A stretch of 50,590 nt of DNA from a virus, in the IMG/VR virus record IMGVR_UViG_3300030098_004404, positions 1 through 50,590 of that record; one strand, written 5' to 3'. The notes below the pieces were generated by a model that searched no databases, was not told where the DNA came from, and saw only the letters and a list, made by a program, of their open reading frames with translations. This document shows, piece by piece, positions 1 to 16,770 of this stretch. The first letter of the stretch is position 1. Each line of letters starts with the position of its first letter. A program made the position numbers and the translations under genes.

Positions 1-34
1 CACATGCTCCAGAACCTCTCGTGTTTACTCTTTC

Positions 35-62
35 ATTATACTATATATATCGGCAATGTCAA
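35..62 (-). promoter_or_regulatory. Early promoter P1 (sigma-70 type)
   Basis: On the minus strand TTGACA (57-62) is followed after 16 bases by TATAAT (35-40), with GCCGATATATATAG in the spacer. It would drive a gene whose ATG lies at 3-5 and which leaves the window, with AGAGG as a possible ribosome site. The TGA stop of the preceding gene lies inside the -35 box. Confidence 0.85.
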
Positions 63-211
63 GCGGTAACTTGAGAAATTTCCAGAATAATTTCTGAATC
101 TTTTGCAAGTTCTGAATCCTTCTCAATGTAGATCGAACCTGATACATCGCCGCTTGCTGTAAAGCGTACTTTCGTCTTTGTCTCTTTGTCTTTGATAAAT
201 TTGATTGTCAT
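59..211 (-). CDS. Small hypothetical early protein, 50 aa
   Basis: The reading frame starts MTIKFIKDKETKTKVRF and ends EISQVTA. It starts at ATG 211 with AAAGG nine bases upstream. It is charged and predicted to be a soluble beta-rich protein; I do not recognise a family. It is the second gene after promoter P2, behind the 41-aa gene at 233-358. Its TGA stop (59-61 on the plus strand) is built into the -35 hexamer of promoter P1, so the end of this gene and the next promoter share bases. Function unknown; the setting suggests an early host-directed protein. Confidence 0.7.
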   Translation of the reverse strand: MTIKFIKDKETKTKVRFTASGDVSGSIYIEKDSELAKDSEIILEISQVTA

Positions 212-232
212 CTTAAAAACCTTTCGCTAAAA

Positions 233-358
233 TTAAAACTCGTTGATGGCCGCCCTACGTTGGGCTGACCGTGTACGTTGTCGCTTTGGCCGGTTGTCGT
301 GTACCTGATGGGTATTGGCCTGATGGCCGACTGACGGTTTGCCGACCTTAATAGTCAT
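233..358 (-). CDS. Small basic early protein, 41 aa
   Basis: The protein begins MTIKVGKPSVGHQ and has a strongly basic second half (NRPKRQRTRSAQRRAA), which suggests nucleic acid binding. The first four residues match those of the next gene (MTIKF). Promoter P2 would start RNA near 385, giving a 27-base leader to ATG 358, as for the neighbours. An in-frame ATG at 385 would add nine residues but would sit at the very start of the transcript, so I prefer 358. No clear Shine-Dalgarno site is visible. No family recognised. Confidence 0.5.
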   Translation of the reverse strand: MTIKVGKPSVGHQANTHQVHDNRPKRQRTRSAQRRAAINEF

Positions 359-391
359 CGTTATTGTTTTTTTCTTGCTTCTCATACTTCT

Positions 392-419
392 ATTATACTT
401 TATATATCGGCGTTGTCAA
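392..419 (-). promoter_or_regulatory. Early promoter P2 (sigma-70 type)
   Basis: Minus-strand TTGACA (414-419), 16-base spacer with GCCGATAT, TATAAT (392-397). CCCC precedes the -35 box, as in most members of this family. It drives 233-358 and 59-211. Confidence 0.85.
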
Positions 420-429
420 GGGGTTGACT

Positions 430-681
430 TTAATTTATTTTGTTTTTTTCGCTGACTTGCTGACCTAATGTCTGTAATTTGACTCGGTAGAGATAAGATA
501 AGACAAGCATCACGATGGCAGGCCTAACCATCTGCACCGTAGTTTGCTGCGTCCATATTTAAGCCCACAAAGGAGCAGGATTTGACTTACGCCTCGATGC
601 ACCCCTAAACCGTCTTACCGATTCTGTCCTTACGTAATGGCTACAAAGGCCTTGAAGGGGTTGTGATGCTGTCTGTCTTAT
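430..681 (-). ncRNA. Candidate promoter-driven small RNA region
   Basis: Promoter P3 fires into about 250 bases with no convincing gene. No ATG lies within the usual 20-40 base leader. A 26-codon frame (430-510) has no ribosome site. One hairpin is visible, with GATGG (514-518) pairing CCATC (528-532). I could not fold a tRNA from it. A structured RNA or a decayed gene are both possible. Confidence 0.3.
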
Positions 682-687
682 GCCTCC

Positions 688-715
688 ATTATAATATATA
701 TCGACCAGATGTCAA
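688..715 (-). promoter_or_regulatory. Early promoter P3 (sigma-70 type)
   Basis: Minus-strand TTGACA (710-715), 16-base spacer ending GTCGATATATAT, TATAAT (688-693), with CCCC before the -35. No gene starts directly downstream. Confidence 0.85.
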
Positions 716-739
716 GGGGAAGTTTAGAAAAATCCCAGA

Positions 740-790
740 ATAAAAAGAAAAAAACTTTTGTCGTAAGTCCTTTAACAGCAAGGGTTTACG
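740..790. repeat. Hairpin repeat element, copy D (inverted)
   Basis: CGTAAGTCC (762-770) and GGGTTTACG (782-790) form a nine-base stem with two G-U pairs when read on the plus strand. The element resembles copies A-C at 4995, 2661 and 3726, but lies in the opposite orientation. It sits beside a GC hairpin at 795-809 and an A/T-run at 741-757. Confidence 0.55.
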
Positions 791-809
791 AAAACCGGGG
801 CAGCCCCGG
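791..809 (-). terminator. Putative terminator of the 833-1817 operon
   Basis: On the minus strand CCGGGG, CTG, CCCCGG form a tight six-base hairpin followed by TTTT. It lies about 25 bases after the stop codons of the last two genes of the leftward operon driven by promoter P4. A second small hairpin (CCGGAAATCCGG) sits just before it. Confidence 0.55.
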
Positions 810-832
810 ATTTCCGGCCTGTCAAGCCCTAT

Positions 833-922
833 TTATTTATAGGCGGCGATTATTGTCACTGCGAACCAAACCCAAGCGGCGGAGCATCCGAACCATAAAA
901 TTGATTTTGACGTGTCTTTCAT
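833..922 (-). CDS. Tiny single-helix membrane protein, 29 aa
   Basis: Starts MKDTSKSILWFGCSAAWVWF and ends TIIAAYK. A short polar N-terminus is followed by one hydrophobic helix of about 20 residues. The ribosome site is good (AGGAAACAGGAAA before the ATG). It lies in a different frame inside the 3' half of 837-1004, so the two overlap over 86 bases; both have plausible starts. It is the last gene of the P4 operon. Probably an inner-membrane peptide; function unknown. Confidence 0.55.
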   Translation of the reverse strand: MKDTSKSILWFGCSAAWVWFAVTIIAAYK

Positions 923-1004
923 TTTCCTGTTTCCTCTTTTCAATATTTTCTAATCGTTGGAAATAGCGTGCAAGTTCCATTGATTGGCATCGTCTCATTC
1001 TCAT
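837..1004 (-). CDS. Small basic helical protein, 55 aa
   Basis: Starts MRMRRCQSMELARYFQ. It is predicted helical and rich in arginine and lysine, with a coiled-coil-like stretch (RLENIEKRKQENERH). The ATG overlaps the TGA of 1001-1084 (ATGA), with GGAG eight bases before it, so coupled translation is likely. A longer frame opens at 1052, but that start would lie inside the preceding gene. It overlaps the membrane peptide gene 833-922 in another frame; one of the two could be spurious. Confidence 0.5.
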   Translation of the reverse strand: MRMRRCQSMELARYFQRLENIEKRKQENERHVKINFMVRMLRRLGLVRSDNNRRL

Positions 1005-1084
1005 AACATAAACTCCGCTACAATCCAACCGGCAATAAATGCAATCGTGCAAAACGCAATCGCTCGTTTTTGTTCATCGTTCAT
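1001..1084 (-). CDS. Tiny single-helix membrane protein, 27 aa
   Basis: Sequence MNDEQKRAIAFCTIAFIAGW then IVAEFML: a charged N-terminal seven residues followed by one transmembrane helix. The ATG overlaps the TGA of 1081-1380 and its own TGA overlaps the next ATG, so three genes are joined by ATGA overlaps. Function unknown; one of at least six single-span peptides in the early block. Confidence 0.55.
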   Translation of the reverse strand: MNDEQKRAIAFCTIAFIAGWIVAEFML

Positions 1085-1380
1085 AGTTCTGTACTCCATT
1101 CGTGATATTGTTCGGGTGTCATAAAGCTCATGTCCTCAGCGTGGCAAAGTATCCACGGAAAACCAAACTCATCTTCCACCCACAAGTCCAACAGTTCTAT
1201 ATCTCCAGCCGCTGCGACTTCTTCCAACACCTCAGCCGGTACTGCAACCTTCATCGAACTAATTGCTCCGCCTTCAGGCTTCGCCCCTAAGTGTTCACAT
1301 TCAAATTTATTTAATGGCGGCAAGATTCTAGCAAGCGTAACCATACAAACACCCATAGGCGGCAAAATTCCATCGTTCAT
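1081..1380 (-). CDS. Hypothetical acidic early protein, 99 aa
   Basis: Starts MNDGILPPMGVCMVTLARIL and ends QYHEWSTEL. The C-terminal half is acidic and aromatic (ELLDLWVEDEFGFPWILC). The ribosome site GGAGG lies in the last codons of 1383-1817, two bases separate the genes, and the ATG is well placed, so translation is probably coupled. Second gene of the P4 operon. No family recognised. Confidence 0.7.
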   Translation of the reverse strand: MNDGILPPMGVCMVTLARILPPLNKFECEHLGAKPEGGAISSMKVAVPAEVLEEVAAAGDIELLDLWVEDEFGFPWILCHAEDMSFMTPEQYHEWSTEL

Positions 1381-1382
1381 TT

Positions 1383-1817
1383 TTAATCCTCCAGTAAATC
1401 GTCGGCGTCGATCAGTCCACCGTTCACCATACCGCCAACCATAGCGAGCATGTTTTTATGAAGCTGAATTTCATCGGCTTCGTTGTCGCTGTAGTCCAGT
1501 TCGCCGGACAAGTCAACGAAGTCTGTACCGCCTTTGTGCGTGGTGAAGATTGACTTTTCTTCTACCTGCTTGCGGAGCTTCTCAATGTTGCGAGCTTTCG
1601 CCGCTTTCGCTTTTTGGTGAGCGGTTTCCGTTTCCGCTTCTTCTGCCATCAATTCATTGAGGCGTGCAATCGTGCGACAGCCTCGCACGTTGTCGTGATA
1701 CTTTTCAGGAAGCCACGAGTTAGGGACTTCGATCAACTCGGCAAACTGCTGTTGCATGTATGCGTTGAGTTCGTCGATGTTGTTGAATCCGCAGTAAGGT
1801 TTAGTTGAATCTAGCAT
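1383..1817 (-). CDS. Hypothetical early protein, 144 aa
   Basis: The largest product of the early block. An N-terminal part (MLDSTKPYCGFNNIDEL) is followed by an alanine/glutamate/lysine-rich helical stretch around residues 55-90 and an acidic C-terminus ending DADDLLED. The start at 1817 has AAAGG eight bases upstream, and P4 gives a leader of about 30 bases. First gene of a five-gene operon (1383-1817 to 833-922). Not recognised; soluble by composition. Confidence 0.75.
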   Translation of the reverse strand: MLDSTKPYCGFNNIDELNAYMQQQFAELIEVPNSWLPEKYHDNVRGCRTIARLNELMAEEAETETAHQKAKAAKARNIEKLRKQVEEKSIFTTHKGGTDFVDLSGELDYSDNEADEIQLHKNMLAMVGGMVNGGLIDADDLLED

Positions 1818-1854
1818 AGTTTACCTTTCAGAGTGTTGTGTTTTGTATACCTAA

Positions 1855-1883
1855 ATTTTAATCTATGGAACTGTATTTGTCAA
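1855..1883 (-). promoter_or_regulatory. Early promoter P4 (sigma-70 type)
   Basis: Minus-strand TTGACA (1878-1883), 17-base spacer, TAAAAT (1855-1860), with CCCC before the -35. The spacer lacks GCCGAT, so this is a diverged member. It drives the five-gene operon ending near 833. Confidence 0.75.
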
Positions 1884-1902
1884 GGGGTCATAGGGGATTT
1901 TT

Positions 1903-2115
1903 TTAGAATCCTCTTAGACCGTGTTGGTCGTGCAGCACATCCCAAGCCGATTGGGAAGCGTTCCATTCATCGACAGTCATTCCGAATTGCTCATGAATTG
2001 GGATCTCTTTGACTTCCGATTCTTCCCAGCTATTGCCGTTTGCAATGCTTGGCTTGTCAGAGCCACCGATCAACAAATACTGTTTTCCCTGTTCGGGCTT
2101 ATCTTTTTTAGTCAT
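1903..2115 (-). CDS. Hypothetical early protein, 70 aa
   Basis: The start is set at ATG 2115 (MTKKDKPEQGKQYLLIG) because AAAGG lies just before it and P5 would begin RNA near 2143. A longer frame to 2190 would run through the promoter and is rejected. The C-terminal half (EIPIHEQFGMTVDEWNASQS) is acidic and helical. Single-gene unit between P5 and P4. No family recognised. Confidence 0.7.
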   Translation of the reverse strand: MTKKDKPEQGKQYLLIGGSDKPSIANGNSWEESEVKEIPIHEQFGMTVDEWNASQSAWDVLHDQHGLRGF

Positions 2116-2149
2116 AATCTTTCCTTTGTGTTGTGTTTTGTATGCTAAA

Positions 2150-2177
2150 ATTTTACCATAACTTGGCCGTATGTCAA
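2150..2177 (-). promoter_or_regulatory. Early promoter P5 (sigma-70 type)
   Basis: Minus-strand TTGACA (2172-2177), 16-base spacer, TAAAAT (2150-2155). The TGA stop of the upstream gene 2174-2395 is contained in the -35 hexamer. Drives 1903-2115. Confidence 0.8.
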
Positions 2178-2395
2178 GGGGTCGGAACATACTTTCCTAC
2201 AAGTTTATGCCACTTTTTCATAACGTAGTCGTATTGGCCGGTTGTCTCTGGATTGCTGATGCAGTTGCCAGCTTCGTTGACACTATCGCAAATGATCCAC
2301 TTGCCATATGTGTTGTGGCGTACCAAGTACCGCATACCGGTTGGCGTGTCTTTGATCATTCGGACTTCGTAAGGCTTCATTCCGGGTAGTAACAT
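2174..2395 (-). CDS. Hypothetical early protein, 73 aa
   Basis: Starts MLLPGMKPYEVRMIKDTPTG; a mixed basic, beta-rich small protein with two cysteines (WIICDSVNEAGNC). ATG 2395 is preceded by CGAAAGGAAAATAAA, a good ribosome site, and promoter P6 lies 27 bases further up. The stop overlaps the next promoter P5. No family recognised. Confidence 0.75.
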   Translation of the reverse strand: MLLPGMKPYEVRMIKDTPTGMRYLVRHNTYGKWIICDSVNEAGNCISNPETTGQYDYVMKKWHKLVGKYVPTP

Positions 2396-2421
2396 TTTAT
2401 TTTCCTTTCGTTATGTCTATC

Positions 2422-2450
2422 ATTATACCATAATCATCGGCATTTGTCAA
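2422..2450 (-). promoter_or_regulatory. Early promoter P6 (sigma-70 type)
   Basis: Minus-strand TTGACA (2445-2450), 17-base spacer containing GCCGAT, TATAAT (2422-2427), CCCC before the -35. Drives 2174-2395. Confidence 0.85.
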
Positions 2451-2462
2451 GGGGTATCTTAA

Positions 2463-2573
2463 CTAATTCTCGTAAGTTTTTAGGATTTTTGTAACGACCC
2501 AGCCGACTGGTAAAAGTAAAACCGGCACGACTACAAACATCATAAACTCTTCGTTGTCTAACATCCAATCCAT
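2463..2573 (-). CDS. Small single-helix membrane protein, 36 aa
   Basis: Starts MDWMLDNEEFMMF, then one strongly hydrophobic helix (VVVPVLLLPVGWVV) and a short basic tail (TKILKTYEN). An acidic N-terminus and basic C-terminus suggest an N-out orientation. AAGGAT precedes the ATG at 2573. Between P6 and a degenerate promoter-like sequence at about 2600-2640. Function unknown. Confidence 0.6.
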   Translation of the reverse strand: MDWMLDNEEFMMFVVVPVLLLPVGWVVTKILKTYEN

Positions 2574-2601
2574 AATCTTATCCTTTCTTGATAACTTCTT
2601 A

Positions 2602-2640
2602 ACTATATATATTATCGCACATGGTCGTGACACGTTAGGT
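2602..2640 (-). promoter_or_regulatory. Degenerate early promoter (P7)
   Basis: The minus strand contains GCGATAATATATATAG, which matches the spacer/-10 side of the early promoter family, but no good TTGACA lies at the right distance. It may be a weak promoter for 2463-2573. Confidence 0.25.
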
Positions 2641-2660
2641 CACTGCCGACTGAAATTCTG

Positions 2661-2732
2661 AAAAAAACAGGAAAAAATCTCGGCCGGGCAGCCCCAGTTT
2701 TCGTAAGTCCTTACCACTAAACGACTTACGTC
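2661..2732 (-). repeat. Hairpin repeat element, copy B (possible terminator)
   Basis: CGTAAGTC (2702-2709) and GACTTACG (2723-2730) form an eight-base stem with a 13-base loop. Next, on the minus strand, come a GC-rich tract (2682-2695, GGGGCTGCCCGGCC) and two T-runs (2672-2677, 2661-2667). It lies a few bases after the stop of 2738-2929, so it may end that operon. Confidence 0.6.
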
Positions 2733-2737
2733 AAAAC

Positions 2738-2929
2738 TTAGCAAAAAGCACACTCGTCCAGCGTAGGCGTGTACTCGCCGCCCTGCTTGCCGCACTTGGG
2801 ACAGATGTCACTGCCATCTAGGACGATAAACAAATCATCCTCTAGCTCCATCTCCTCCTCCTCGCACCACATCCAATACTGCAAGGAACCATCATCTTCG
2901 GGTTGAAAATTTTCGTCGTGATCGCTCAT
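2738..2929 (-). CDS. Small acidic zinc-ribbon protein, 63 aa
   Basis: Starts MSDHDENFQPEDDGS. An acidic middle (CEEEEMELEDD) is followed by CPKCGKQGGEY and a terminal CAFC, giving two CxxC knuckles that would bind one zinc ion. The start at 2929 overlaps the end of 2892-3020 and has GAGTGG upstream; an in-frame ATG at 2941 is the alternative. Third gene of the P8 operon. Zinc-ribbon peptides of this size usually make protein or nucleic-acid contacts; target unknown. Confidence 0.65.
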   Translation of the reverse strand: MSDHDENFQPEDDGSLQYWMWCEEEEMELEDDLFIVLDGSDICPKCGKQGGEYTPTLDECAFC

Positions 2930-3020
2930 AAATCCACTCATCAAACAAGCCAAGTAAAACGGGAAAGGTGACGGCGGCAACCGTCGCCCATTCCCAGAAG
3001 GTAATCATTTCGCTACTCAT
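2892..3020 (-). CDS. Small single-helix membrane protein, 42 aa
   Basis: Starts MSSEMITFWEWATVAAVTFP, with one hydrophobic helix (about residues 7-27) and a basic tail (YERSRRKFSTRR). The ATG shares a base with the TGA of 3020-3307 (TGATG), and the 3' end overlaps the start of 2738-2929 in another frame. Middle gene of the P8 operon. The basic tail suggests a cytoplasmic C-terminus. Function unknown. Confidence 0.6.
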   Translation of the reverse strand: MSSEMITFWEWATVAAVTFPVLLGLFDEWIYERSRRKFSTRR

Positions 3021-3307
3021 CAGTCCCAATCCCTCATCGCATAGTTTTCCCATTCGGCGGCGTACATATCCACCGGATCATAGTCGCTGTAATCGTCGTC
3101 CCACGGCTCCTGTGGGTACTCGCTCGGATCTTCATCCTCCATTCCCGCATAGAAGTCACGATGCGGATCGAAGCTCGAAGGCTCAAGCTCAGGCTCGGCG
3201 GCCTCCTGCTCCTCCAGCCATGCGTGATACTCCTCCCAGTCAGCCTGTGTAGGCTCAACGGGTGCGAGTTCTTCGGACTGGATGTTGATGTCAAATTTAG
3301 AAAACAT
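3020..3307 (-). CDS. Highly acidic small protein, DNA-mimic candidate, 95 aa
   Basis: By my count 31 of 95 residues are Asp or Glu, against one Lys and two Arg, with many Trp and Tyr. The C-terminal third (DDDYSDYDPVDMYAAEWENY) is the most acidic part. Phage proteins with such composition, such as T7 Ocr, often mimic DNA and block restriction or other DNA-binding enzymes. I see no sequence match to Ocr, so this is a composition argument. AAAGG precedes ATG 3307; P8 gives a leader of about 34 bases. First gene of a three-gene operon. Confidence 0.75.
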   Translation of the reverse strand: MFSKFDINIQSEELAPVEPTQADWEEYHAWLEEQEAAEPELEPSSFDPHRDFYAGMEDEDPSEYPQEPWDDDYSDYDPVDMYAAEWENYAMRDWD

Positions 3308-3347
3308 AGAAAAAACCTTTCAAAAGTGTCGTGTCTTGTATAACCCC

Positions 3348-3375
3348 ATTATACATAATATCGGCAGAATGTCAA
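3348..3375 (-). promoter_or_regulatory. Early promoter P8 (sigma-70 type)
   Basis: Minus-strand TTGACA (3370-3375), 16-base spacer with GCCGATAT, TATAAT (3348-3353), CCCC before the -35. Drives the operon 3020-3307, 2892-3020, 2738-2929. Confidence 0.85.
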
Positions 3376-3385
3376 GGGGTCTTTA

Positions 3386-3551
3386 GGAAAAAAATCAAAG
3401 TTTTTGGGATTTGAGCAGATTCGTCACTGCTCGGCTTAACCTCTGCGGATTTCAGATGGGCAATATCTCGCGGGCGATTCGCCTTTGAGTCGCTCCTGCT
3501 TACCGGAGCCACCGCTTTAGGAATTCATTGGATTAGTAACCTCTCTTTCAT
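3386..3551 (-). ncRNA. Candidate structured small RNA under promoter P9
   Basis: P9 fires into about 150 bases with no gene; the only ATG near the start opens a seven-codon frame. Three compact hairpins are visible: GGAGC/GCTCC (3505-3509 with 3492-3496), CGCC/GGCG around ATT (3480-3483 with 3473-3476), and CTGCTC/GAGCAG (3427-3432 with 3413-3418). A T-rich stretch follows on the minus strand (3388-3405). These features suggest an independently transcribed RNA. Confidence 0.45.
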
Positions 3552-3557
3552 GCCTTA

Positions 3558-3586
3558 ATTATACCACAAAAAGTTGATCTTGTCAA
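3558..3586 (-). promoter_or_regulatory. Early promoter P9 (sigma-70 type)
   Basis: Minus-strand TTGACA (3581-3586), 17-base spacer without the GCCGAT core, TATAAT (3558-3563), CCCC before the -35. No gene downstream; see the RNA candidate. Confidence 0.8.
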
Positions 3587-3602
3587 GGGGTATTTAGAAA
3601 TT

Positions 3603-3671
3603 TTACGATAAAACTTCTGCACCCAAAAGACCAATTAAACAAGCACCAATAAGTAAACAAAAAAACGTCAT
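3603..3671 (-). CDS. Tiny hydrophobic membrane peptide, 22 aa
   Basis: MTFFCLLIGACLIGLLGAEV then LS: almost entirely one hydrophobic helix. The ribosome site is the strongest of the block (AGGAGG, nine bases before the ATG). Oddly, the -10 of promoter P10 overlaps this site, so a transcript from P10 would begin after it; the site would work only on read-through RNA from further upstream. A longer frame upstream has no support. Confidence 0.5.
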   Translation of the reverse strand: MTFFCLLIGACLIGLLGAEVLS

Positions 3672-3684
3672 ATTAACTTCCTCC

Positions 3685-3713
3685 TTTATACTATATATAT
3701 CGGCAGAAGTCAA
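3685..3713 (-). promoter_or_regulatory. Early promoter P10 (sigma-70 type)
   Basis: Minus-strand TTGACT (3708-3713), 17-base spacer with GCCGATATATATAG, TATAAA (3685-3690). The -10 box runs into the AGGAGG ribosome site of 3603-3671. Confidence 0.7.
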
Positions 3714-3725
3714 TAGCAAACTTAA

Positions 3726-3806
3726 GAAAAAAGCAAAAAAAAGGGAAAAAACCCGGCCGGGCGGGGCCACTTTTTGTAAGTCCTTTAATTTCAACAACTT
3801 ACGTCA
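3726..3806 (-). repeat. Hairpin repeat element, copy C (possible terminator)
   Basis: GTAAGT (3776-3781) and ACTTAC (3797-3802) keep the stem of copies A and B in diverged form. On the minus strand a GC-rich block (3752-3769, containing CCCGGCCGGG) and two T-runs (3746-3751, 3735-3742) follow. It lies between the stop of 3853-4134 and promoter P10. Confidence 0.55.
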
Positions 3807-3852
3807 AAGTTTGCCCTGTATGTAGACCGCTCACACAGTCGTATTTGTTAGG

Positions 3853-4134
3853 CTACGACGGCAGGCATCCGTCAAGGATACCGCCGTGAGCGTCAAGCTC
3901 TGCACGTACTACCTCAACCGGCACGAAACCATAAACGGTTTCGGTGTAGTCATCAGTGCCGCACAGCTCTGCATAGTTGCGAAGCTCTGCTGTCTTTGGT
4001 GTAGTAGATGGAAAGCCACACTCTACCGTAACAGGTACGCCGTCAGTGTTACGCTGCGAGTAAGCACCATCGTGAGCCTGTACGCTAATGTTGAAGCCGT
4101 CGTTACAAGTGATTCTAGGATTGTGAGAAAACAT
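3853..4134 (-). CDS. Hypothetical early protein, 93 aa
   Basis: Starts MFSHNPRITCNDGFNISVQA and contains FVPVEVVRAELDAHGGI near the C-terminus. The start at 4134 is set by CGAAAGG ten bases upstream; a longer frame to 4191 lacks a site. It looks like a small soluble alpha/beta protein; I do not recognise its function. It follows 4231-4464 after a 96-base gap containing a hairpin (4180-4195), and no promoter is visible in the gap, so P11 probably serves both. Confidence 0.7.
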   Translation of the reverse strand: MFSHNPRITCNDGFNISVQAHDGAYSQRNTDGVPVTVECGFPSTTPKTAELRNYAELCGTDDYTETVYGFVPVEVVRAELDAHGGILDGCLPS

Positions 4135-4179
4135 AAGATAAACCTTTCGTTGGTGTGGTTGTGTGGTGCGTATCTTGGA

Positions 4180-4195
4180 ATAGGTCGCCACCTAT
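4180..4195 (-). other. Hairpin between two early genes
   Basis: ATAGGT, GGCG, ACCTAT form a six-base stem with a four-base loop on the minus strand, in the 96-base gap between 4231-4464 and 3853-4134. It could be an RNA processing or stabilising structure; no T-run follows. Confidence 0.4.
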
Positions 4196-4230
4196 GCTTG
4201 CGACTAGGGCAAGGCTTGCGGGTTAAACCC

Positions 4231-4464
4231 TTACTCGTTGGCAGTGCCGTACTTCTCAAAGTATCGAGCCATTGCATCCATCTTAGATTGCGGTACTTCC
4301 GTAACGCTGATGGTCTCAACGTCATTGTAATAATGATTGTAACGGAAGCGGGTTTCGCCGTGTTCATTGGTGAATAGCGAATCCTGCCCAACAGTGCAGA
4401 ATGTAGTTTCCCGGCCGGTTACTGGGTGGATAGCCAGAACGTCAAAGTTTTTTTTGTTAGTCAT
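4231..4464 (-). CDS. Small early protein, paralogue of 5072-5296, 77 aa
   Basis: Starts MTNKKNFDVLAIHPVTGRET and ends with VPQSKMDAMARYFEKYGTAN. The last 22 residues match those of 5072-5296 at all but two positions, and the pattern FDV-AI-P--GR---F and GET-FR-N-YY are shared, so the two are clear duplicates. The start at 4464 has CGAAAGGTAATAAC upstream. Probably a small soluble beta domain with a C-terminal helix. First gene after P11. Function unknown. Confidence 0.8.
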   Translation of the reverse strand: MTNKKNFDVLAIHPVTGRETTFCTVGQDSLFTNEHGETRFRYNHYYNDVETISVTEVPQSKMDAMARYFEKYGTANE

Positions 4465-4506
4465 GTTATTACCTTTCGTGAATGACTGTTGTTGTGTTAT
4501 GCCTTA

Positions 4507-4535
4507 AGTATACCATACTTATCGGCGTTTGTCAA
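4507..4535 (-). promoter_or_regulatory. Early promoter P11 (sigma-70 type)
   Basis: Minus-strand TTGACA (4530-4535), 17-base spacer with GCCGATA, TATACT (4507-4512), CCCC before the -35. Drives 4231-4464 and probably 3853-4134. Confidence 0.8.
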
Positions 4536-4544
4536 GGGGGTTCT

Positions 4545-4715
4545 TTAATTATTTATGATATTTATTAGAATATCTTTTCTAGCCCACAGGAATTCCAATT
4601 CGTTCATTATCACGATTTTCTTATGTCGTGAGCGTGCGTTGGCGTGTTCGTTGACTTTCGCTTCAATTTGTCGGTTAGTCGTGAACAGTTTCAGTTTAGC
4701 TTCGTTGCGTGTCAT
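4545..4715 (-). CDS. Small basic helical protein, 56 aa
   Basis: Starts MTRNEAKLKLFTTNRQIEAK and ends DILINIINN. Predicted almost all helical with many Arg and Lys (NARSRHKKIVIM), so nucleic-acid binding or a coiled coil is possible. GAAAGGTTACAAC precedes ATG 4715; P12 gives a leader of about 27 bases. Single-gene unit. No family recognised. Confidence 0.65.
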   Translation of the reverse strand: MTRNEAKLKLFTTNRQIEAKVNEHANARSRHKKIVIMNELEFLWARKDILINIINN

Positions 4716-4748
4716 GTTGTAACCTTTCGTTTAACTTTCTATGATCTT

Positions 4749-4777
4749 ATTATACCATAAGTATCGGCGTTTGTCAA
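4749..4777 (-). promoter_or_regulatory. Early promoter P12 (sigma-70 type)
   Basis: Minus-strand TTGACA (4772-4777), 17-base spacer with GCCGATA, TATAAT (4749-4754). It begins three bases after the stop of 4781-4918 and drives 4545-4715. Confidence 0.85.
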
Positions 4778-4780
4778 TAC

Positions 4781-4918
4781 CTAACTTGAGAGAATTTCTG
4801 ATTTTGTCCAGAAAAATTCTTTCTCGTCCATCCGCTCAACGTGTGCGGGAATGTCCCGCTTGTCTGTAATGATGCTGATGGTTCTGCCGTTGTCGTTTGT
4901 GAAAGTCATTTGAATCAT
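4781..4918 (-). CDS. Small hypothetical early protein, 45 aa
   Basis: Starts MIQMTFTNDNGRTISIITDK and ends SEILSS. Predicted to be a short beta hairpin followed by a charged helix (VERMDEKEFFWTKSE). AAAGGTAATAAC precedes ATG 4918, the same leader as 4231-4464. Single-gene unit between P13 and P12. No family recognised. Confidence 0.65.
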   Translation of the reverse strand: MIQMTFTNDNGRTISIITDKRDIPAHVERMDEKEFFWTKSEILSS

Positions 4919-4945
4919 GTTATTACCTTTGTTTGTTATGCCCTA

Positions 4946-4974
4946 AGTATATCATATATATCGTCACTTGTCAA
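4946..4974 (-). promoter_or_regulatory. Early promoter P13 (sigma-70 type)
   Basis: Minus-strand TTGACA (4969-4974), 17-base spacer with ACGATATATAT, TATACT (4946-4951). Drives 4781-4918. Confidence 0.8.
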
Positions 4975-4994
4975 GCACAATCTTAACTAAATAA

Positions 4995-5066
4995 TAAAAA
5001 AACAGGAAATTATTTTGCCGGGCAGGGCCAGCCTTCGTAAGTCCTTACTGTCAAACGACTTACGTA
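4995..5066 (-). repeat. Hairpin repeat element, copy A (possible terminator)
   Basis: CGTAAGTC (5036-5043) and GACTTACG (5057-5064) form an eight-base stem with a 13-base loop, the same geometry as copy B. On the minus strand a GC-rich tract (5017-5032) and a T-run (4997-5002) follow. It starts five bases after the stop of 5072-5296. Confidence 0.6.
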
Positions 5067-5071
5067 AAAGT

Positions 5072-5296
5072 TTACTCGTTAGCTGTACCGTACCGCTCGA
5101 AGTATGCGGCCATTGCATCCATCTTAGACTGTGGTACTTCCGCCACACTGATAACCTCACAGCTATCATAGTAATCGTTAAAGCGAAACACTGTTTCGCC
5201 ACTATCGTTTTGCCGTAATTGGTCACGGCTAACACTGAGGAAAGTACAAGGGCGGCCATTACGTGGGTCGATTGCTTTAACGTCAAATCTTTTCAT
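5072..5296 (-). CDS. Small early protein, paralogue of 4231-4464, 74 aa
   Basis: Starts MKRFDVKAIDPRNGRPCTFL and ends with VPQSKMDAMAAYFERYGTAN, nearly identical in its last 22 residues to 4231-4464 while the N-terminal half has diverged. This points to a tandem duplication with a conserved C-terminal helix as the functional surface. AAAGGTAATAATA precedes ATG 5296. Single-gene unit under P14, followed by repeat copy A. Function unknown. Confidence 0.8.
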   Translation of the reverse strand: MKRFDVKAIDPRNGRPCTFLSVSRDQLRQNDSGETVFRFNDYYDSCEVISVAEVPQSKMDAMAAYFERYGTANE

Positions 5297-5327
5297 TATT
5301 ATTACCTTTGTTGTTTGTTATGTCTTA

Positions 5328-5356
5328 AGTATATTATATATATCGGCTGTTGTCAA
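5328..5356 (-). promoter_or_regulatory. Early promoter P14 (sigma-70 type)
   Basis: Minus-strand TTGACA (5351-5356), 17-base spacer with GCCGATATATAT, TATACT (5328-5333). Drives 5072-5296. Confidence 0.8.
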
Positions 5357-5375
5357 GAACAATCTTTAATTATTT

Positions 5376-5441
5376 TTAATTATTCTCGAAATAAAAACAA
5401 CCAGCGATAAGGATGACAGCGTAGATAAAAGTAAAAAGCAT
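5376..5441 (-). CDS. Tiny membrane peptide, 21 aa
   Basis: MLFTFIYAVILIAGCFYFEN then N: one hydrophobic helix with a short acidic tail. GAG lies eight bases before the ATG. The cysteine at residue 15 follows LIAG, which resembles a lipobox, but a 14-residue signal would be short, so a plain membrane helix is more likely. First gene of the leftward block, under P15. Below normal gene-finder size; the support is the promoter, leader length and hydrophobicity. Confidence 0.45.
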   Translation of the reverse strand: MLFTFIYAVILIAGCFYFENN

Positions 5442-5479
5442 TTTAATTCTCGTTAGTGTTGTTAACTTGTTATGTCTCT

Positions 5480-5507
5480 ATTATACATAGATCGGCAGAA
5501 AAGTCAA
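5480..5507 (-). promoter_or_regulatory. Early promoter P15 (sigma-70 type)
   Basis: Minus-strand TTGACT (5502-5507), 16-base spacer with GCCGAT, TATAAT (5480-5485). The rightmost member of the family. Confidence 0.8.
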
Positions 5508-5563
5508 TACCCTTTAGCCAAAAAACCATAAAATTATCATCTTTTTTCTTACCCCCTAGTTAT

Positions 5564-5745: not shown

Positions 5746-6000
5746 ATGCCTAATAAAGAACAAGAGAAACGCCTGAAGTCGCTTTTGAATACAAAGAGCA
5801 CCGGCACGCTGCAAGAGGAGATTGAAGCTCAGCTTGCCCAAAACATAGAGGATCCAATTATACCACCCGCATTTGATATGACCGCTAGTGTTGCTGGTAT
5901 CACAGAGGAAGAACAGGAAATGATAGATCTGGCCGAAATAAAGAAGCTAGACAGAACAGAGGAGCTTAGAAAACAGAATGAACATTCCAGAAGGCATTGA
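5746..6000 (+). CDS. Small charged protein before the sigma factor, 84 aa
   Basis: Starts MPNKEQEKRLKSLLNTKSTG. The start is set at 5746 because AGGAGG (5732-5737) lies eight bases before it; an ATG at 5728 precedes that site and is rejected. The protein is helical and acidic, with ITEEEQEMIDLAEIKKLDR near the C-terminus. It opens the rightward block and overlaps the sigma factor gene by 23 bases, so the two are translated together. It could be a partner of the sigma factor or a virion-assembly protein; no family recognised. Confidence 0.75.
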   Translation: MPNKEQEKRLKSLLNTKSTGTLQEEIEAQLAQNIEDPIIPPAFDMTASVAGITEEEQEMIDLAEIKKLDRTEELRKQNEHSRRH

Positions 6001-6499
6001 TGAGGAACATGCCGTAGAGGTAATCACGAAGATCGCCCGTAGACTGGCCCCTAAATACACCTTTGCCTCATACGAAGCAGAGGACATAGAACAAGAAGCT
6101 TTTTTGATAGGAATAGCAGGACTAGCTAAATATGATCAGAATCGTCCCCTAGAGAACTTCATGTACACCCATATAAATAATCGCTTGAAGACATTTAAAC
6201 GAGATAACTATTACAGATTAGATTATGGTACTGCTGCCCAGAAGATACAGGACAGAAAGAAGAATTTACTTGAGCCCATAGATATTGACTCGATATATGG
6301 AGTATACACCCACGAACAGTCCTCTAGTAATGCACAGATGCAGGAGACCCTAGACCTAATAGACAAAAAGCTCCCAGCACATCTACGTAGAGACTATTTA
6401 AAATTGCAATCAAACTCTCCTTTGCCTAAAGGCCGCAAGGCCATAGTGATAGAAACTATAGAAAAGATTATCAACGGAGACTATGATGAAGAAGGGTAG
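5978..6499 (+). CDS. Phage-encoded sigma-70 family factor (late sigma, gp55-like role)
   Basis: Residues 20-80 form a sigma-70 region 2: ASYEAEDIEQEAFLIGIAGL, then a YDQNRPLENFMYTHINNRL segment that matches the helix binding the -10 strand and core polymerase. At 173 aa it lacks a full sigma-70 architecture but resembles the compact late sigma factors of T4-type phages. The C-terminal part (LPAHLRRDYLKLQSNSPLPK) could be a reduced region 4. It likely directs host core polymerase to phage late promoters, for which TGTGTATA is the candidate. Family call is strong; the late role is inferred from position. Confidence 0.85.
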   Translation: MNIPEGIDEEHAVEVITKIARRLAPKYTFASYEAEDIEQEAFLIGIAGLAKYDQNRPLENFMYTHINNRLKTFKRDNYYRLDYGTAAQKIQDRKKNLLEPIDIDSIYGVYTHEQSSSNAQMQETLDLIDKKLPAHLRRDYLKLQSNSPLPKGRKAIVIETIEKIINGDYDEEG

Positions 6500-13066: not shown

Positions 13067-15190
13067 ATGTCCGAACCTCTATTCCAAACATGGGCCAGTG
13101 ACGCTGAAAAGGGAAAAGTATATGATGACAATGCTTTAGAGGGATATGACGGTGCCGTTTATCGTTCTCAGGCTCATTATGGTTACAACGGAAATAGGCA
13201 GACCTATATAGACGTTGAAACAAATCGCTCTGTACGTCCTAGCTTTAGACGATCTGATTATGATGCGTTTAGACCCGGCGAAGCCATTCCAAGCAAACAA
13301 AAGCGTATAATGTCTATGTGCATGAATGCTTATGATAGGGTTGGAATTATAAGAAACGTTATTGATCTTATGAGCGACTTTGCTAGTCAGGGTCTTGTGC
13401 TTGTACATCCAAATAAAAGCATAGAGAAGTTTTACAGAAAATGGTTTAATCAGGTTAATGGTACGGACAGATCTGAAAGATTTTTGAACTATCTTTATAG
13501 AACCGGAAATGTTGTAGTAAAAAGAAGAACCGCAAAGCTCGACAAGAAAAAAGAGGCCCACCTAAAGCGTGCCGCTGCTGCTGATATTGTCATAGAAACA
13601 AAAAAGGTCAAAAAAAGAGAAGTGCCTTGGATGTATGACTTTCTCAACCCTGTCGCTATTGACGTTATGGACCATGGGATGCTTGCTGTTGGCAAACCAG
13701 AGTTTTATTTAAACCTGTCAAAATACACATATCAATCACTACTAAAGTCCTCAACACAAAACAAGAACAGCTTTAAGACTCTTCCGGCAGATCTGCAAAA
13801 AAGAATAAAAGATAATGACCGCAGAATACCGTTAGATTCTAACAGCACATTTTTCTATCACTACAAAAAGGATGACTGGCTTCTCTGGGCTAATCCTATG
13901 ATTTATGCTATCCTTGATGACATAAATATGCTGGAAAAAATGAAGCTCGCAGACTTAGCTGCACTTGATGGAGCAATATCGAGCGTCCGTCTGTGGACTC
14001 TTGGTGATTTCGATCAAAAAATTGTACCAACCAAGGCTGGCCTAAATAAGGTTAGAGACATACTCGCTAGTAATGTTGGTGGAGGCACTATGGATTTGGT
14101 TTGGGGTCCAGAGCTTAGCTTTACAGAAAGCCAATCTCAGGTATACAAGTTCTTGGGGTCAGAAAAGTATCAGCCGGTTTTGACCAGCATCTATGCGGGC
14201 CTTGGTATCCCTCCTACTCTTACGGGAGCATCTGCCAGCGGAGGATATACAAATAACTATGTATCTCTAAAAACCCTAATCGAAAGACTTGAATACGGTA
14301 GAGAAATACTTGCCCAGTTCTGGAGACAGGAAATAGAGTTTGTCAGAGAGGCTATGGGATTCAGGTTTCCTGCTGAGATACATTTTGATTCCATTGTTCT
14401 ATCGGATGAAGCCGCTCAGAAAAACCTGCTTATCCAGCTTGCAGACAGAGACATTATATCTCAAGAAACTCTTCTTGAAAGATTCAGAGAGATACCCACC
14501 ATTGAACGCGTTAGGGTAAGAAGAGAAGAGAGAGAAAGAATGAACGATTCGTCTGCTCCAAAGAAAGCTGGTCCTTATCATAATCCTCAACATAGGAATG
14601 ATGTAGTCAAAATAGGTATGACTAAGGATATAGTTGATACGGAAGAGTATTTTGATAGACTTGGTATCCCTCATCAGGAAAAAGAAGAGGAGGCGGCACC
14701 AAGTCCCAATCCAGTCCAAGAGGAAGTAGAAAAAGAAGAAGAAAGATCAGAGCCAATTAACGACGAGGGTCGTCCTCCCTTCTCTAGGGACACACAGCCC
14801 AGAAAACAAAAGCGTGTTTTACCCCGAAGCGGTGAAGCGACAAGTGCAACCTTATGGGCGATTAAAGCACAGGCAAAGATCTCTGATATAATGACGCCCA
14901 TTGCCTGCTCGCACTTTAAAAAGAAAGACGCTAGGGCCTTAAGCAAGGTGGAGGTTGACCAGTTAGAGTATTTGAAGCTATGTATTCTTACGGGAATGAA
15001 ACCATTCGTAGATGTAACCCCTGAGCTAGTCAAAGAACTTGTTGAGGCGGGAACAAAACCTAGCTCACAATTCAGTGATAGGGTCGAGGAAAACATAAAA
15101 AGCTTCTCTTCTATAAATAACAGGAAGCCAACCGTTCTTGAAACTAGACATATCTACGCCACCGTGTATGCTGGTATGTCCTGTTTTTAA
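13067..15190 (+). CDS. Portal protein, 707 aa
   Basis: Position after terL, length, and sequence character mark this as the portal: an N-terminal region with MCMNAYDRVGIIRNVIDLMS, a central part with TSIYAGLGIPPTLTGA, and SGGYTNNYVSLKTLIERLEY, which is typical of the wing/stem transition of portal proteins. The C-terminal 200 residues are charged and low-complexity (EEEAAPSPNPVQEEVEKEEE), followed by a helical end domain. It forms the dodecameric DNA gate and connector docking site. GGAG precedes the start at 13067. Confidence 0.88.
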   Translation: MSEPLFQTWASDAEKGKVYDDNALEGYDGAVYRSQAHYGYNGNRQTYIDVETNRSVRPSFRRSDYDAFRPGEAIPSKQKRIMSMCMNAYDRVGIIRNVIDLMSDFASQGLVLVHPNKSIEKFYRKWFNQVNGTDRSERFLNYLYRTGNVVVKRRTAKLDKKKEAHLKRAAAADIVIETKKVKKREVPWMYDFLNPVAIDVMDHGMLAVGKPEFYLNLSKYTYQSLLKSSTQNKNSFKTLPADLQKRIKDNDRRIPLDSNSTFFYHYKKDDWLLWANPMIYAILDDINMLEKMKLADLAALDGAISSVRLWTLGDFDQKIVPTKAGLNKVRDILASNVGGGTMDLVWGPELSFTESQSQVYKFLGSEKYQPVLTSIYAGLGIPPTLTGASASGGYTNNYVSLKTLIERLEYGREILAQFWRQEIEFVREAMGFRFPAEIHFDSIVLSDEAAQKNLLIQLADRDIISQETLLERFREIPTIERVRVRREERERMNDSSAPKKAGPYHNPQHRNDVVKIGMTKDIVDTEEYFDRLGIPHQEKEEEAAPSPNPVQEEVEKEEERSEPINDEGRPPFSRDTQPRKQKRVLPRSGEATSATLWAIKAQAKISDIMTPIACSHFKKKDARALSKVEVDQLEYLKLCILTGMKPFVDVTPELVKELVEAGTKPSSQFSDRVEENIKSFSSINNRKPTVLETRHIYATVYAGMSCF

Positions 15191-15218
15191 CCAAGATTTA
15201 TCACTGTAATTAGTTTTT

Positions 15219-15227
15219 TGTGTATTA
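15219..15227 (+). promoter_or_regulatory. Putative late promoter motif L3
   Basis: TGTGTATTA, a slight variant, preceded by TTTTTT and 23 bases before the ATG at 15250. Confidence 0.4.
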
Positions 15228-15249
15228 CCCCTCGGAGGAGTACTCAAAA

Positions 15250-16770
15250 ATGAAAATTTACCAACAAGAGATAAACGACGGTTTGGAAAAAGCTCTGTCG
15301 GCTAATAATACTATAGCATGTTGTGCTCTAGCAGAGTCTTATAATCCTACCGAAAAAGATATCGAAAATCTAAAGAAGGCCCTTGACTCTAGCGAGGCAG
15401 GGAGCGAGTTGGCGATTGCCGAGAACCAAGATCAATTTGATTTATACTATTTAAAGTCTATCTTGGTTAGTACTGGGTGGAATAAGAATGACGATGTTTT
15501 TGATCCCAAAGAGATGTGGGAAGCAAGAAACACCCCAGAGGACAAACCTTTTAATTTTATGCACGACGAGAAAGACATAATTGGTCACATCACGGCCAAC
15601 GAGGTTGTCGATTTTGAGGGAAAAGTTGTTGACGAACAAGATGGCTTACCTAGTCAATTTAACATAGTAACTTCCGCTGTTATATATACTGAGTGGTCAG
15701 ATGCCGAACAGCGAGAACGAATGAAAAAAATAACGGCGGAAATAGAAGAGGGCAAGTGGTTCGTTTCTATGGAGTGTCTTTTTCCTGAGTTTGATTACGC
15801 TTTAGCTAATAAGGACGGAGAGACCAAGATCGTTAAAAGAAATGAGGCTTCCGCCTTTTTAACAAAACACTTAAGATCATATGGAGGAGACGGAATTTAC
15901 GAAGATTACAGAGTGGGCCGATTGTTAAGAAACTTATCGTTCTCTGGTAAAGGCTTAGTTTCAAAACCAGCTAACCCACGAAGTGTAATTTTGGAAGGAA
16001 ATGATTTATTTGATGAATCGAAGGCACAAGTTTTAACTATATCTTCATTAAAGGAGAACGATATGTCTGAAAGTTACGAAAAGCAGATCACTGATCTGCA
16101 ATCGCAGTTAGCAGAGTCTAAGGCTGCTAACAAAGCATTAGAAGACAAGATTGTTGCTGAGCAGCAAGCTGAATTCGATGCTAAACTAACTAACCTTGAA
16201 GAAACCATTGCAGAGCAGTCCACAAAGATTGCCGAGCAAGAAGAAGCTTATAAGGTTTTGGCTGAACAAGTTACAAAGCATGAAGCTACCATTGCTGAAA
16301 AAGAAGAAGCTATTGCTTCTAAGCAAGAAGAGCTTGATGTTCTGTACAAAAAAGAAGCCGTTATGAAGCGTGTAGCCCAGCTTACAGAAGCAGGGTTTGA
16401 TGCTGAAGAAGCCACAGCTACTGTGGAAAAATTCGAGTCTGTCAACGATGAAATTTTCGCTGAGGTTGTTGCACTTGCAGCAGTCAAAAAGAAAGCGGAA
16501 ATGAAAAAGGATGAGGCTAAGCCTTTTCCTCCTAAAAAGGACGAAGACAAAGACGAAGAAAAGGACGCTGAAGCAAAGCCTATGAAAAAGATGGCTGAAC
16601 TCGACGAAGAGCGAGACGTTGCTGAAGTGGACGAAGAAGCCTTGGCTCAGGCCGAGGAAACAGAAGAAGTTGCTATCGCAGAAGCGATGGGCGAAGACGA
16701 TCCTGCGGAAAACCTTCGTTCTGTTGCTAGTGAGTGGCTTGGTTCAGTTTTACAATCAAACAACAAGTAA
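15250..16770 (+). CDS. Prohead protease-scaffold fusion, 506 aa
   Basis: The N-terminal half resembles an S78/U35-type prohead protease: His105 in FNFMHDEKDIIGHI and Ser173 in WFVSMECLF fit the catalytic His and Ser. From about residue 272 the protein is a long coiled coil (QITDLQSQLAESKAANKALE) ending in an acidic/lysine-rich tail, as expected of a scaffold. GGAGGAG sets the start at 15250. An internal in-frame start at 16063 would make the scaffold alone. It lies between portal and capsid genes, the usual place. The protease probably cleaves scaffold and capsid after assembly. Confidence 0.85.
   Translation: MKIYQQEINDGLEKALSANNTIACCALAESYNPTEKDIENLKKALDSSEAGSELAIAENQDQFDLYYLKSILVSTGWNKNDDVFDPKEMWEARNTPEDKPFNFMHDEKDIIGHITANEVVDFEGKVVDEQDGLPSQFNIVTSAVIYTEWSDAEQRERMKKITAEIEEGKWFVSMECLFPEFDYALANKDGETKIVKRNEASAFLTKHLRSYGGDGIYEDYRVGRLLRNLSFSGKGLVSKPANPRSVILEGNDLFDESKAQVLTISSLKENDMSESYEKQITDLQSQLAESKAANKALEDKIVAEQQAEFDAKLTNLEETIAEQSTKIAEQEEAYKVLAEQVTKHEATIAEKEEAIASKQEELDVLYKKEAVMKRVAQLTEAGFDAEEATATVEKFESVNDEIFAEVVALAAVKKKAEMKKDEAKPFPPKKDEDKDEEKDAEAKPMKKMAELDEERDVAEVDEEALAQAEETEEVAIAEAMGEDDPAENLRSVASEWLGSVLQSNNK
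16063..16770 (+). CDS. Internal in-frame scaffold product, 235 aa
   Basis: AAAGGAG (16050-16056) lies seven bases before ATG 16063, which is in the same frame as 15250-16770. The product MSESYEKQITDLQSQ onward is exactly the coiled-coil part without the protease domain. This is the arrangement of lambda C/Nu3, where a nested start makes the major scaffold from the protease gene. The site is as strong as those of true gene starts nearby, so use is likely but not proven. Confidence 0.65.
   Translation: MSESYEKQITDLQSQLAESKAANKALEDKIVAEQQAEFDAKLTNLEETIAEQSTKIAEQEEAYKVLAEQVTKHEATIAEKEEAIASKQEELDVLYKKEAVMKRVAQLTEAGFDAEEATATVEKFESVNDEIFAEVVALAAVKKKAEMKKDEAKPFPPKKDEDKDEEKDAEAKPMKKMAELDEERDVAEVDEEALAQAEETEEVAIAEAMGEDDPAENLRSVASEWLGSVLQSNNK

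Follow-up and report, generated by a model that had tools for sequence, protein, structure and literature searches.

Why should the strong sigma-70 promoters of a virus carry a constant word inside their spacer? The question is raised by the window, the stretch of 50,590 nucleotides (nt) analysed here, which makes up the leading 50.6 kb of a virus record of 138.5 kb (IMG/VR IMGVR_UViG_3300030098_004404). At its left end (1-5.5 kb) small genes form a leftward block, which is followed by a rightward packaging and structural block encoding a T4-type terminase; the remainder of the record contains long leftward regions. An earlier note, made from the sequence alone, had described fourteen minus-strand promoters in the leftward block and attributed their shared spacer word either to recent amplification or to a second ligand. 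Our analysis indicates that the word is most likely the -10 half of a sigma-28 (FliA/WhiG-type) promoter that overlaps the sigma-70 promoter, and not a feature of the latter. We propose, with about even confidence, that a widely distributed lineage of planctomycete phages has built the promoter of the host flagellar/WhiG sigma factor into the majority of its early promoters, which could let infection start under either sigma programme.

Near-consensus sigma-70 promoters in the leftward block

All fourteen promoters with TTGACA or TTGACT, a spacer of 16 or 17 bp and a TATAAT-like -10 box are present as the earlier note had described them, their -35 boxes starting on the minus strand at 62, 419, 715, 1883, 2177, 2450, 3375, 3586, 3713, 4535, 4777, 4974, 5356 and 5507. 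The -35 box is TTGACA at 12 sites and TTGACT at two, while the -10 box reads TATAAT (eight sites), TATACT (three), TAAAAT (two) or TATAAA (one). On the minus strand of positions 1-5560 seven sites are perfect; allowing one mismatch in 12 raises the count to 13, and allowing two raises it to 14. Dinucleotide shuffles of this region give 0, 0.02 and 0.9 sites, respectively, and its plus strand has 0, 0 and 3. For the shuffles and the permutations described below near-identical copies were removed, and other relatedness among sites was ignored. The occurrence of TTGACA and TATAAT 16-18 bp apart is far above chance, confirming that the sigma-70 promoters of the leftward block are real. Most of them are located 20-40 nt ahead of a small open reading frame (ORF) that has AAAGG or AAGGA as its ribosome site, and the region is probably expressed early.

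The spacer word GCCGAT follows the -35 box at nine of the 14 sites and GNCGAT at 11, in agreement with the earlier description, and is missing at 1883, 2177 and 3586. The tetramer CCCC ahead of the -35 box, likewise listed as a shared element, occurs at eight of 14 window sites but is variable in relatives, where CCCC, GGGG, GCTA and others are found. We rejected it as part of the motif because it is not conserved and is local to the window phage and its close kin.

A sigma-28-type motif overlaps the sigma-70 promoters

Inspection of the same sites reveals a second conserved element which the earlier note had overlooked, i.e. TAAAG, TCAAG or TTAAG, separated from GNCGAT downstream of it by 15 or 16 bp. 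A TAAAG-N15/16-GNCGATA-type pair is found at 11 of the 14 window promoters, and the site of this putative second reader reaches upstream of the -35 box. Proceeding from the left end, the composite site at 35..74 combines TTGACA (62-57)-N16-TATAAT with TCAAG (74-70)-N15-GCCGATA (54-48), and that at 392..432 combines TTGACA (419-414)-N16-TATAAT with TAAAG (432-428)-N16-GCCGATA (411-405). A weaker TAAAC (726-722), N16 from GTCGATA (705-699), accompanies TTGACA (715-710)-N16-TATAAT at 688..726. At 2422..2462, ahead of ORF 2174-2395, TTGACA (2450-2445)-N17-TATAAT overlaps TTAAG (2462-2458)-N16-GCCGATG (2441-2435), and at 3348..3385, ahead of ORF 3020-3307, TTGACA (3375-3370)-N16-TATAAT overlaps TAAAG (3385-3381)-N15-GCCGATA (3365-3359). 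The site at 3685..3725 comprises TTGACT (3713-3708)-N17-TATAAA and TTAAG (3725-3721)-N16-GCCGATA (3704-3698).

The composite sites further to the right are located at 4507..4547 (TTGACA (4535-4530)-N17-TATACT; TAAAG (4547-4543)-N16-GCCGATA (4526-4520); ahead of ORF 4231-4464), 4749..4789 (TTGACA (4777-4772)-N17-TATAAT; TCAAG (4789-4785)-N16-GCCGATA (4768-4762); ahead of ORF 4545-4715), 4946..4986 (TTGACA (4974-4969)-N17-TATACT; TTAAG (4986-4982)-N16-GACGATA (4965-4959); ahead of ORF 4781-4918), 5328..5368 (TTGACA (5356-5351)-N17-TATACT; TAAAG (5368-5364)-N16-GCCGATA (5347-5341); ahead of ORF 5072-5296) and 5480..5516 (TTGACT (5507-5502)-N16-TATAAT; TAAAG (5516-5512)-N15-GCCGATC (5496-5490)). 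The three promoters without GNCGAT are of sigma-70 type only: 1855..1883 (TTGACA-N17-TAAAAT, ahead of ORF 1383-1817), 2150..2177 (TTGACA-N16-TAAAAT, ahead of ORF 1903-2115) and 3558..3586 (TTGACA-N17-TATAAT, with no clear ORF directly downstream).

Comparison with relatives separates the two motifs. Here GNCGAT lies 2 to 7 bp after TTGACA while the TTGACA-TATAAT spacing stays at 16 or 17 bp; because this offset varies, the word is not tied to the -35 box. In contrast, the gap between TAAAG and GNCGAT stays at 15 or 16 bp while the offset to TTGACA slides. When offsets are shuffled among sites the TAAAG match score drops from 270 to 170 +/- 12 (z = 8.6). Where the word is present, TAAAG accompanies it in 50 of 68 cases; among leftward sites lacking the word, TAAAG occurs in three of 43. 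A sliding offset combined with two fixed spacings is the pattern expected of two independent rigid readers. The pair has the make-up of a sigma-28 promoter, namely a TAAA(G) -35 element and a GCCGATA-like -10 element at fixed spacing. Within the phage, 15 of 18 motif matches fall on sigma-70 promoters, and the remainder is close to the chance number of about 2.5.

This is further supported by a separate collection of viral sites. Scanning IMG/VR for TTGACA...GNCGATA...TATAAT, blind to TAAAG, yielded 138 distinct sites; the set overlaps the first one in part (loci L312 and L019 come from one contig) and is not fully independent of it. TAAAG, counted when at least four of its five letters match, occurs at a gap of 15 (n = 28) or 16 (n = 52) in 80 of the 138 sites, compared with zero to seven sites at any other tested gap and with one of 61 in a control with the word reversed. 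As the offset increases from 2 to 6, TAAAG shifts towards TTGACA step for step. Relatives of proteins of the window phage are encoded at 71 of 120 loci with the word and at 30 of 119 control loci.

Further promoters of the family, about nine in number, are found elsewhere in the record (span 109967-137534), at record positions 109967, 110931, 127058, 128581, 130391, 132914, 133831 and 137534, with a weaker one at 134535.

The probable host and its flagellar sigma factor

The window phage is a widespread, uncultured ocean phage that probably infects planctomycete bacteria. At least 598 terminase relatives are found in IMG/VR; terminase identity to the best-matching isolated phages is at most about 26%, and a DNA-level comparison with isolated phages gave no near match. 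The window phage carries three genes of the DUF1501 family, an unusual phage cargo, on the minus strand (L011:10671-12068, 13159-14370 and 14367-15632). DUF1501 is a family known mainly from Planctomycetes and their relatives. The protein encoded at L011:13159-14370 matches mostly Pirellulales proteins (identity up to 77%). Its sole better match (85%) is on a contig in a metagenome-assembled genome titled SAR202 cluster bacterium OSU_TB57, which is probably misbinned phage DNA because structural genes and composite promoters of the window-phage lineage occur in the same assembly (loci L094 and L532-L533). The sequence comparisons point to Pirellulales as the probable host order.

We then analysed 29 upstream regions of flagellin genes, nearly all from genomes of this order. 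TAAAG-N15-GNCGATA-like sites are found in 12 of the 29 and N16 sites in two, compared with about 0.1 in shuffles, while none of the 29 has a gap of N12, N13, N14, N17 or N18. The unusual gap of 15 or 16, which exceeds that of E. coli by one or two, is common to the phage and its likely host order. The flagellin motif sites lack an overlaid sigma-70 promoter (at least four mismatches in 12), and because of this the overlay is a feature of the phage.

In each of the 13 Pirellulales genomes examined, a FliA/WhiG sigma factor (TIGR02479) scores above the curated cut-off; a matching sigma is thus encoded in the order in which the host probably lies. The FliA/WhiG copy from a genome without a flagellin match shares 82% identity with the copy of a genome that has flagellin. 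Its segment RIRGAMLDELRSMDWVPR, which we take to be the reader of the -10 element, differs by one residue from that of E. coli FliA.

Two overlapping promoter codes and their possible readers

Most promoters of the leftward block probably combine a sigma-70 promoter (TTGACA-N16/17-TATAAT) and a sigma-28 promoter (TAAAG-N15/16-GNCGATA) on the same bases, either of which could be used by a host holoenzyme. Each promoter code keeps a rigid spacing of its own while their mutual offset is free, and the evidence from sequence for this overlay is strong. The sigma-70 or the sigma-28 holoenzyme of the host (E-sigma70, E-sigma28) would initiate transcription of the same small gene from start points a few bases apart, and since the two would compete for the same DNA, the output would resemble an OR-gate. 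The leftward, probably early region would then fire under whichever sigma dominates in the infected planctomycete. This may allow early expression in different cell states, such as those of swarmer and sessile cells. The earlier proposal of a second ligand reading the spacer therefore holds in outline, although the ligand is most likely a sigma factor and not a separate DNA-binding protein.

Several observations weigh against this interpretation. Three of the 14 window promoters (1883, 2177 and 3586) have no sigma-28 half. The spacing of 14 bp from TAAAG to GCCGAT typical of E. coli is not found in the phage, where it is 15 or 16; we read this as a probable lineage difference because the Pirellulales flagellin genes have the same gap. 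A flagellin match is absent in nine of 11 Pirellulales genomes searched, some of them incomplete assemblies, including the one closest by DUF1501. The exact host may therefore not swim, and a connection with motility is uncertain even if the host sigma does read the sites. In ten host genomes, exact TAAAG-N11..19-GCCGATA sites are not clearly commoner genome-wide than the reversed control; at flagellin genes most motif sites have GTC or GAC, and any one genome has few of them. Finally, a Planctomycetia genome has a high-GC contig of 79 kb (loci L528-L531) that carries relatives of the phage structural block, and composite promoters were not found on it.

The second motif might instead be read by a sigma factor of the phage itself, with genes passing from host sigma-70 to phage sigma after infection. 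Two sigma-like genes are indeed present (window 5978-6499 and record 94946-95425), and the best solved relative of one product is WhiG. However, neither protein has the FliA segment presumed to recognise the -10 element, and standalone copies of the TAAAG/GNCGATA motif show no excess at other genes of the phage. Moreover, the rightward structural genes are preceded by a different motif, TGTGTATA (window 5698, 13007, 18382, 25737 and 44453, plus strand), which in 871 kb of terminase loci of relatives occurs 125 times in forward and twice in reverse orientation. It is probably a late-promoter element of this phage group, for use by a phage sigma. Pirellulales flagellin genes, in addition, bear the TAAAG/GNCGATA motif with the same gap. 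Given above all the absent segment and the separate late motif, we consider a phage-encoded reader very improbable.

A non-sigma regulator of phage or host could bind TAAAG-N15/16-GNCGATA as a stoperator-like operator and repress or activate the sigma-70 promoters. The near-exclusive location of the sites on promoters, across the -35 box, is what an operator might show, but an operator tied to polymerase would hardly be expected to slide by 2-7 bp relative to both sigma-70 boxes, and the bipartite motif and its spacing fit a sigma-28 promoter and the flagellin promoters of the host order. We rejected a repressor operator given this match and the location of the sites on promoters, and regard a regulator of this kind as very improbable. 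Copying, in turn, has contributed in part, as the earlier note suspected: a number of window promoters match one another at 60-77% over 63-82 nt, and repeats D1, D3 and D5 mark duplicates both of promoters and of one gene pair. Yet the spacer word is kept among phages with terminase identities of about 50-85%, and copying of a cassette would not yield a variable offset with a fixed TAAAG-GNCGATA gap. The sliding offsets led us to reject recent amplification as sufficient alone, and it is extremely unlikely that the shared words are merely the trace of one recently copied promoter cassette.

Additional features of the leftward region

The duplicated pair of small genes is located at 4231-4464 and 5072-5296 on the minus strand (73% DNA identity over 136 nt), each copy behind its own composite promoter. 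Membrane-like peptides of 22 and 21 amino acids, read by eye at about 3610-3680 and 5375-5445 (minus strand), lie directly downstream of the composite promoters 3713 and 5507. Following the strong promoters 715 and 3586, about 170-250 nt (430-681 and 3380-3551, minus strand) are devoid of a convincing ORF, and the transcripts may possibly be small RNAs; an Rfam search of the leftward region gave no convincing family and one weak match below the gathering score. A 79-nt repeat at 2662-2740, 3735-3813 and 4996-5074 (partial at 758-790) contains an inverted repeat of the GTAAGTC...GACTTAC type, next to a GC-rich GGCCGGGC stretch that resembles a terminator. In locus L012 four phage transfer RNA genes (Arg, Met, Ile and Glu; 16202-16570, minus strand) are found, with a composite promoter at 16468 between that for Glu and the other three.

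Comparison with known systems

If the host FliA/WhiG sigma binds these sites, the phage would hedge between host transcription programmes at most early genes, matching early transcription to the planctomycete life cycle by two promoter codes interleaved at free offset. The composite motif could serve as a sequence tag for planctomycete phages, and we propose CTAAAG-N15-GNCGATA as a candidate Pirellulales sigma-28 promoter. By this reading the conserved FliA/WhiG sigma would also function in planctomycetes whose genomes gave no flagellin match. The sigma-70-only promoters 1883, 2177 and 3586 provide natural controls for expression tests.

Mycobacteriophage-type stoperators are repressor sites spread across the genome, also away from promoters. 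No such spread is seen in the window phage, where, as described above, 15 of 18 matches lie on sigma-70 promoters. In open-access full texts we found no report of phage early promoters built for a host flagellar-type sigma, which is weak evidence of novelty. The early/middle promoters of Herelleviridae (TTGACW-N17-TATANT with TRTGN; PMC10383478) are similar as near-consensus, extended -10 sigma-70 promoters at early phage genes; no second sigma motif is described in the passages compared here.

The E. coli FliA consensus, for which there is mutational evidence, is TAAAGTTT-n11-GCCGATAA, i.e. TAAAG-N14-GCCGATAA (PMC2859248). The phage sites share the TAAAG -35 and GCCGATA -10 elements in the same order and on the same strand, and differ in the gap of 15 or 16 instead of 14, in the variable second base of GNCGATA, in being overlaid on a strong sigma-70 promoter and in their location in a phage. 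For several E. coli flagellar operons, among them fliDST, flgKL, flgMN and fliL, input from both sigma-70 and FliA is known, with polymerase competition suggested at fliL (PMC4183435), so that there, too, one set of genes receives both inputs. While the sigma-70 promoter of these operons needs FlhDC, that of the phage is near consensus, and in the phage, unlike in E. coli, the sigma-28 motif is interleaved with it base by base and repeated at many genes.

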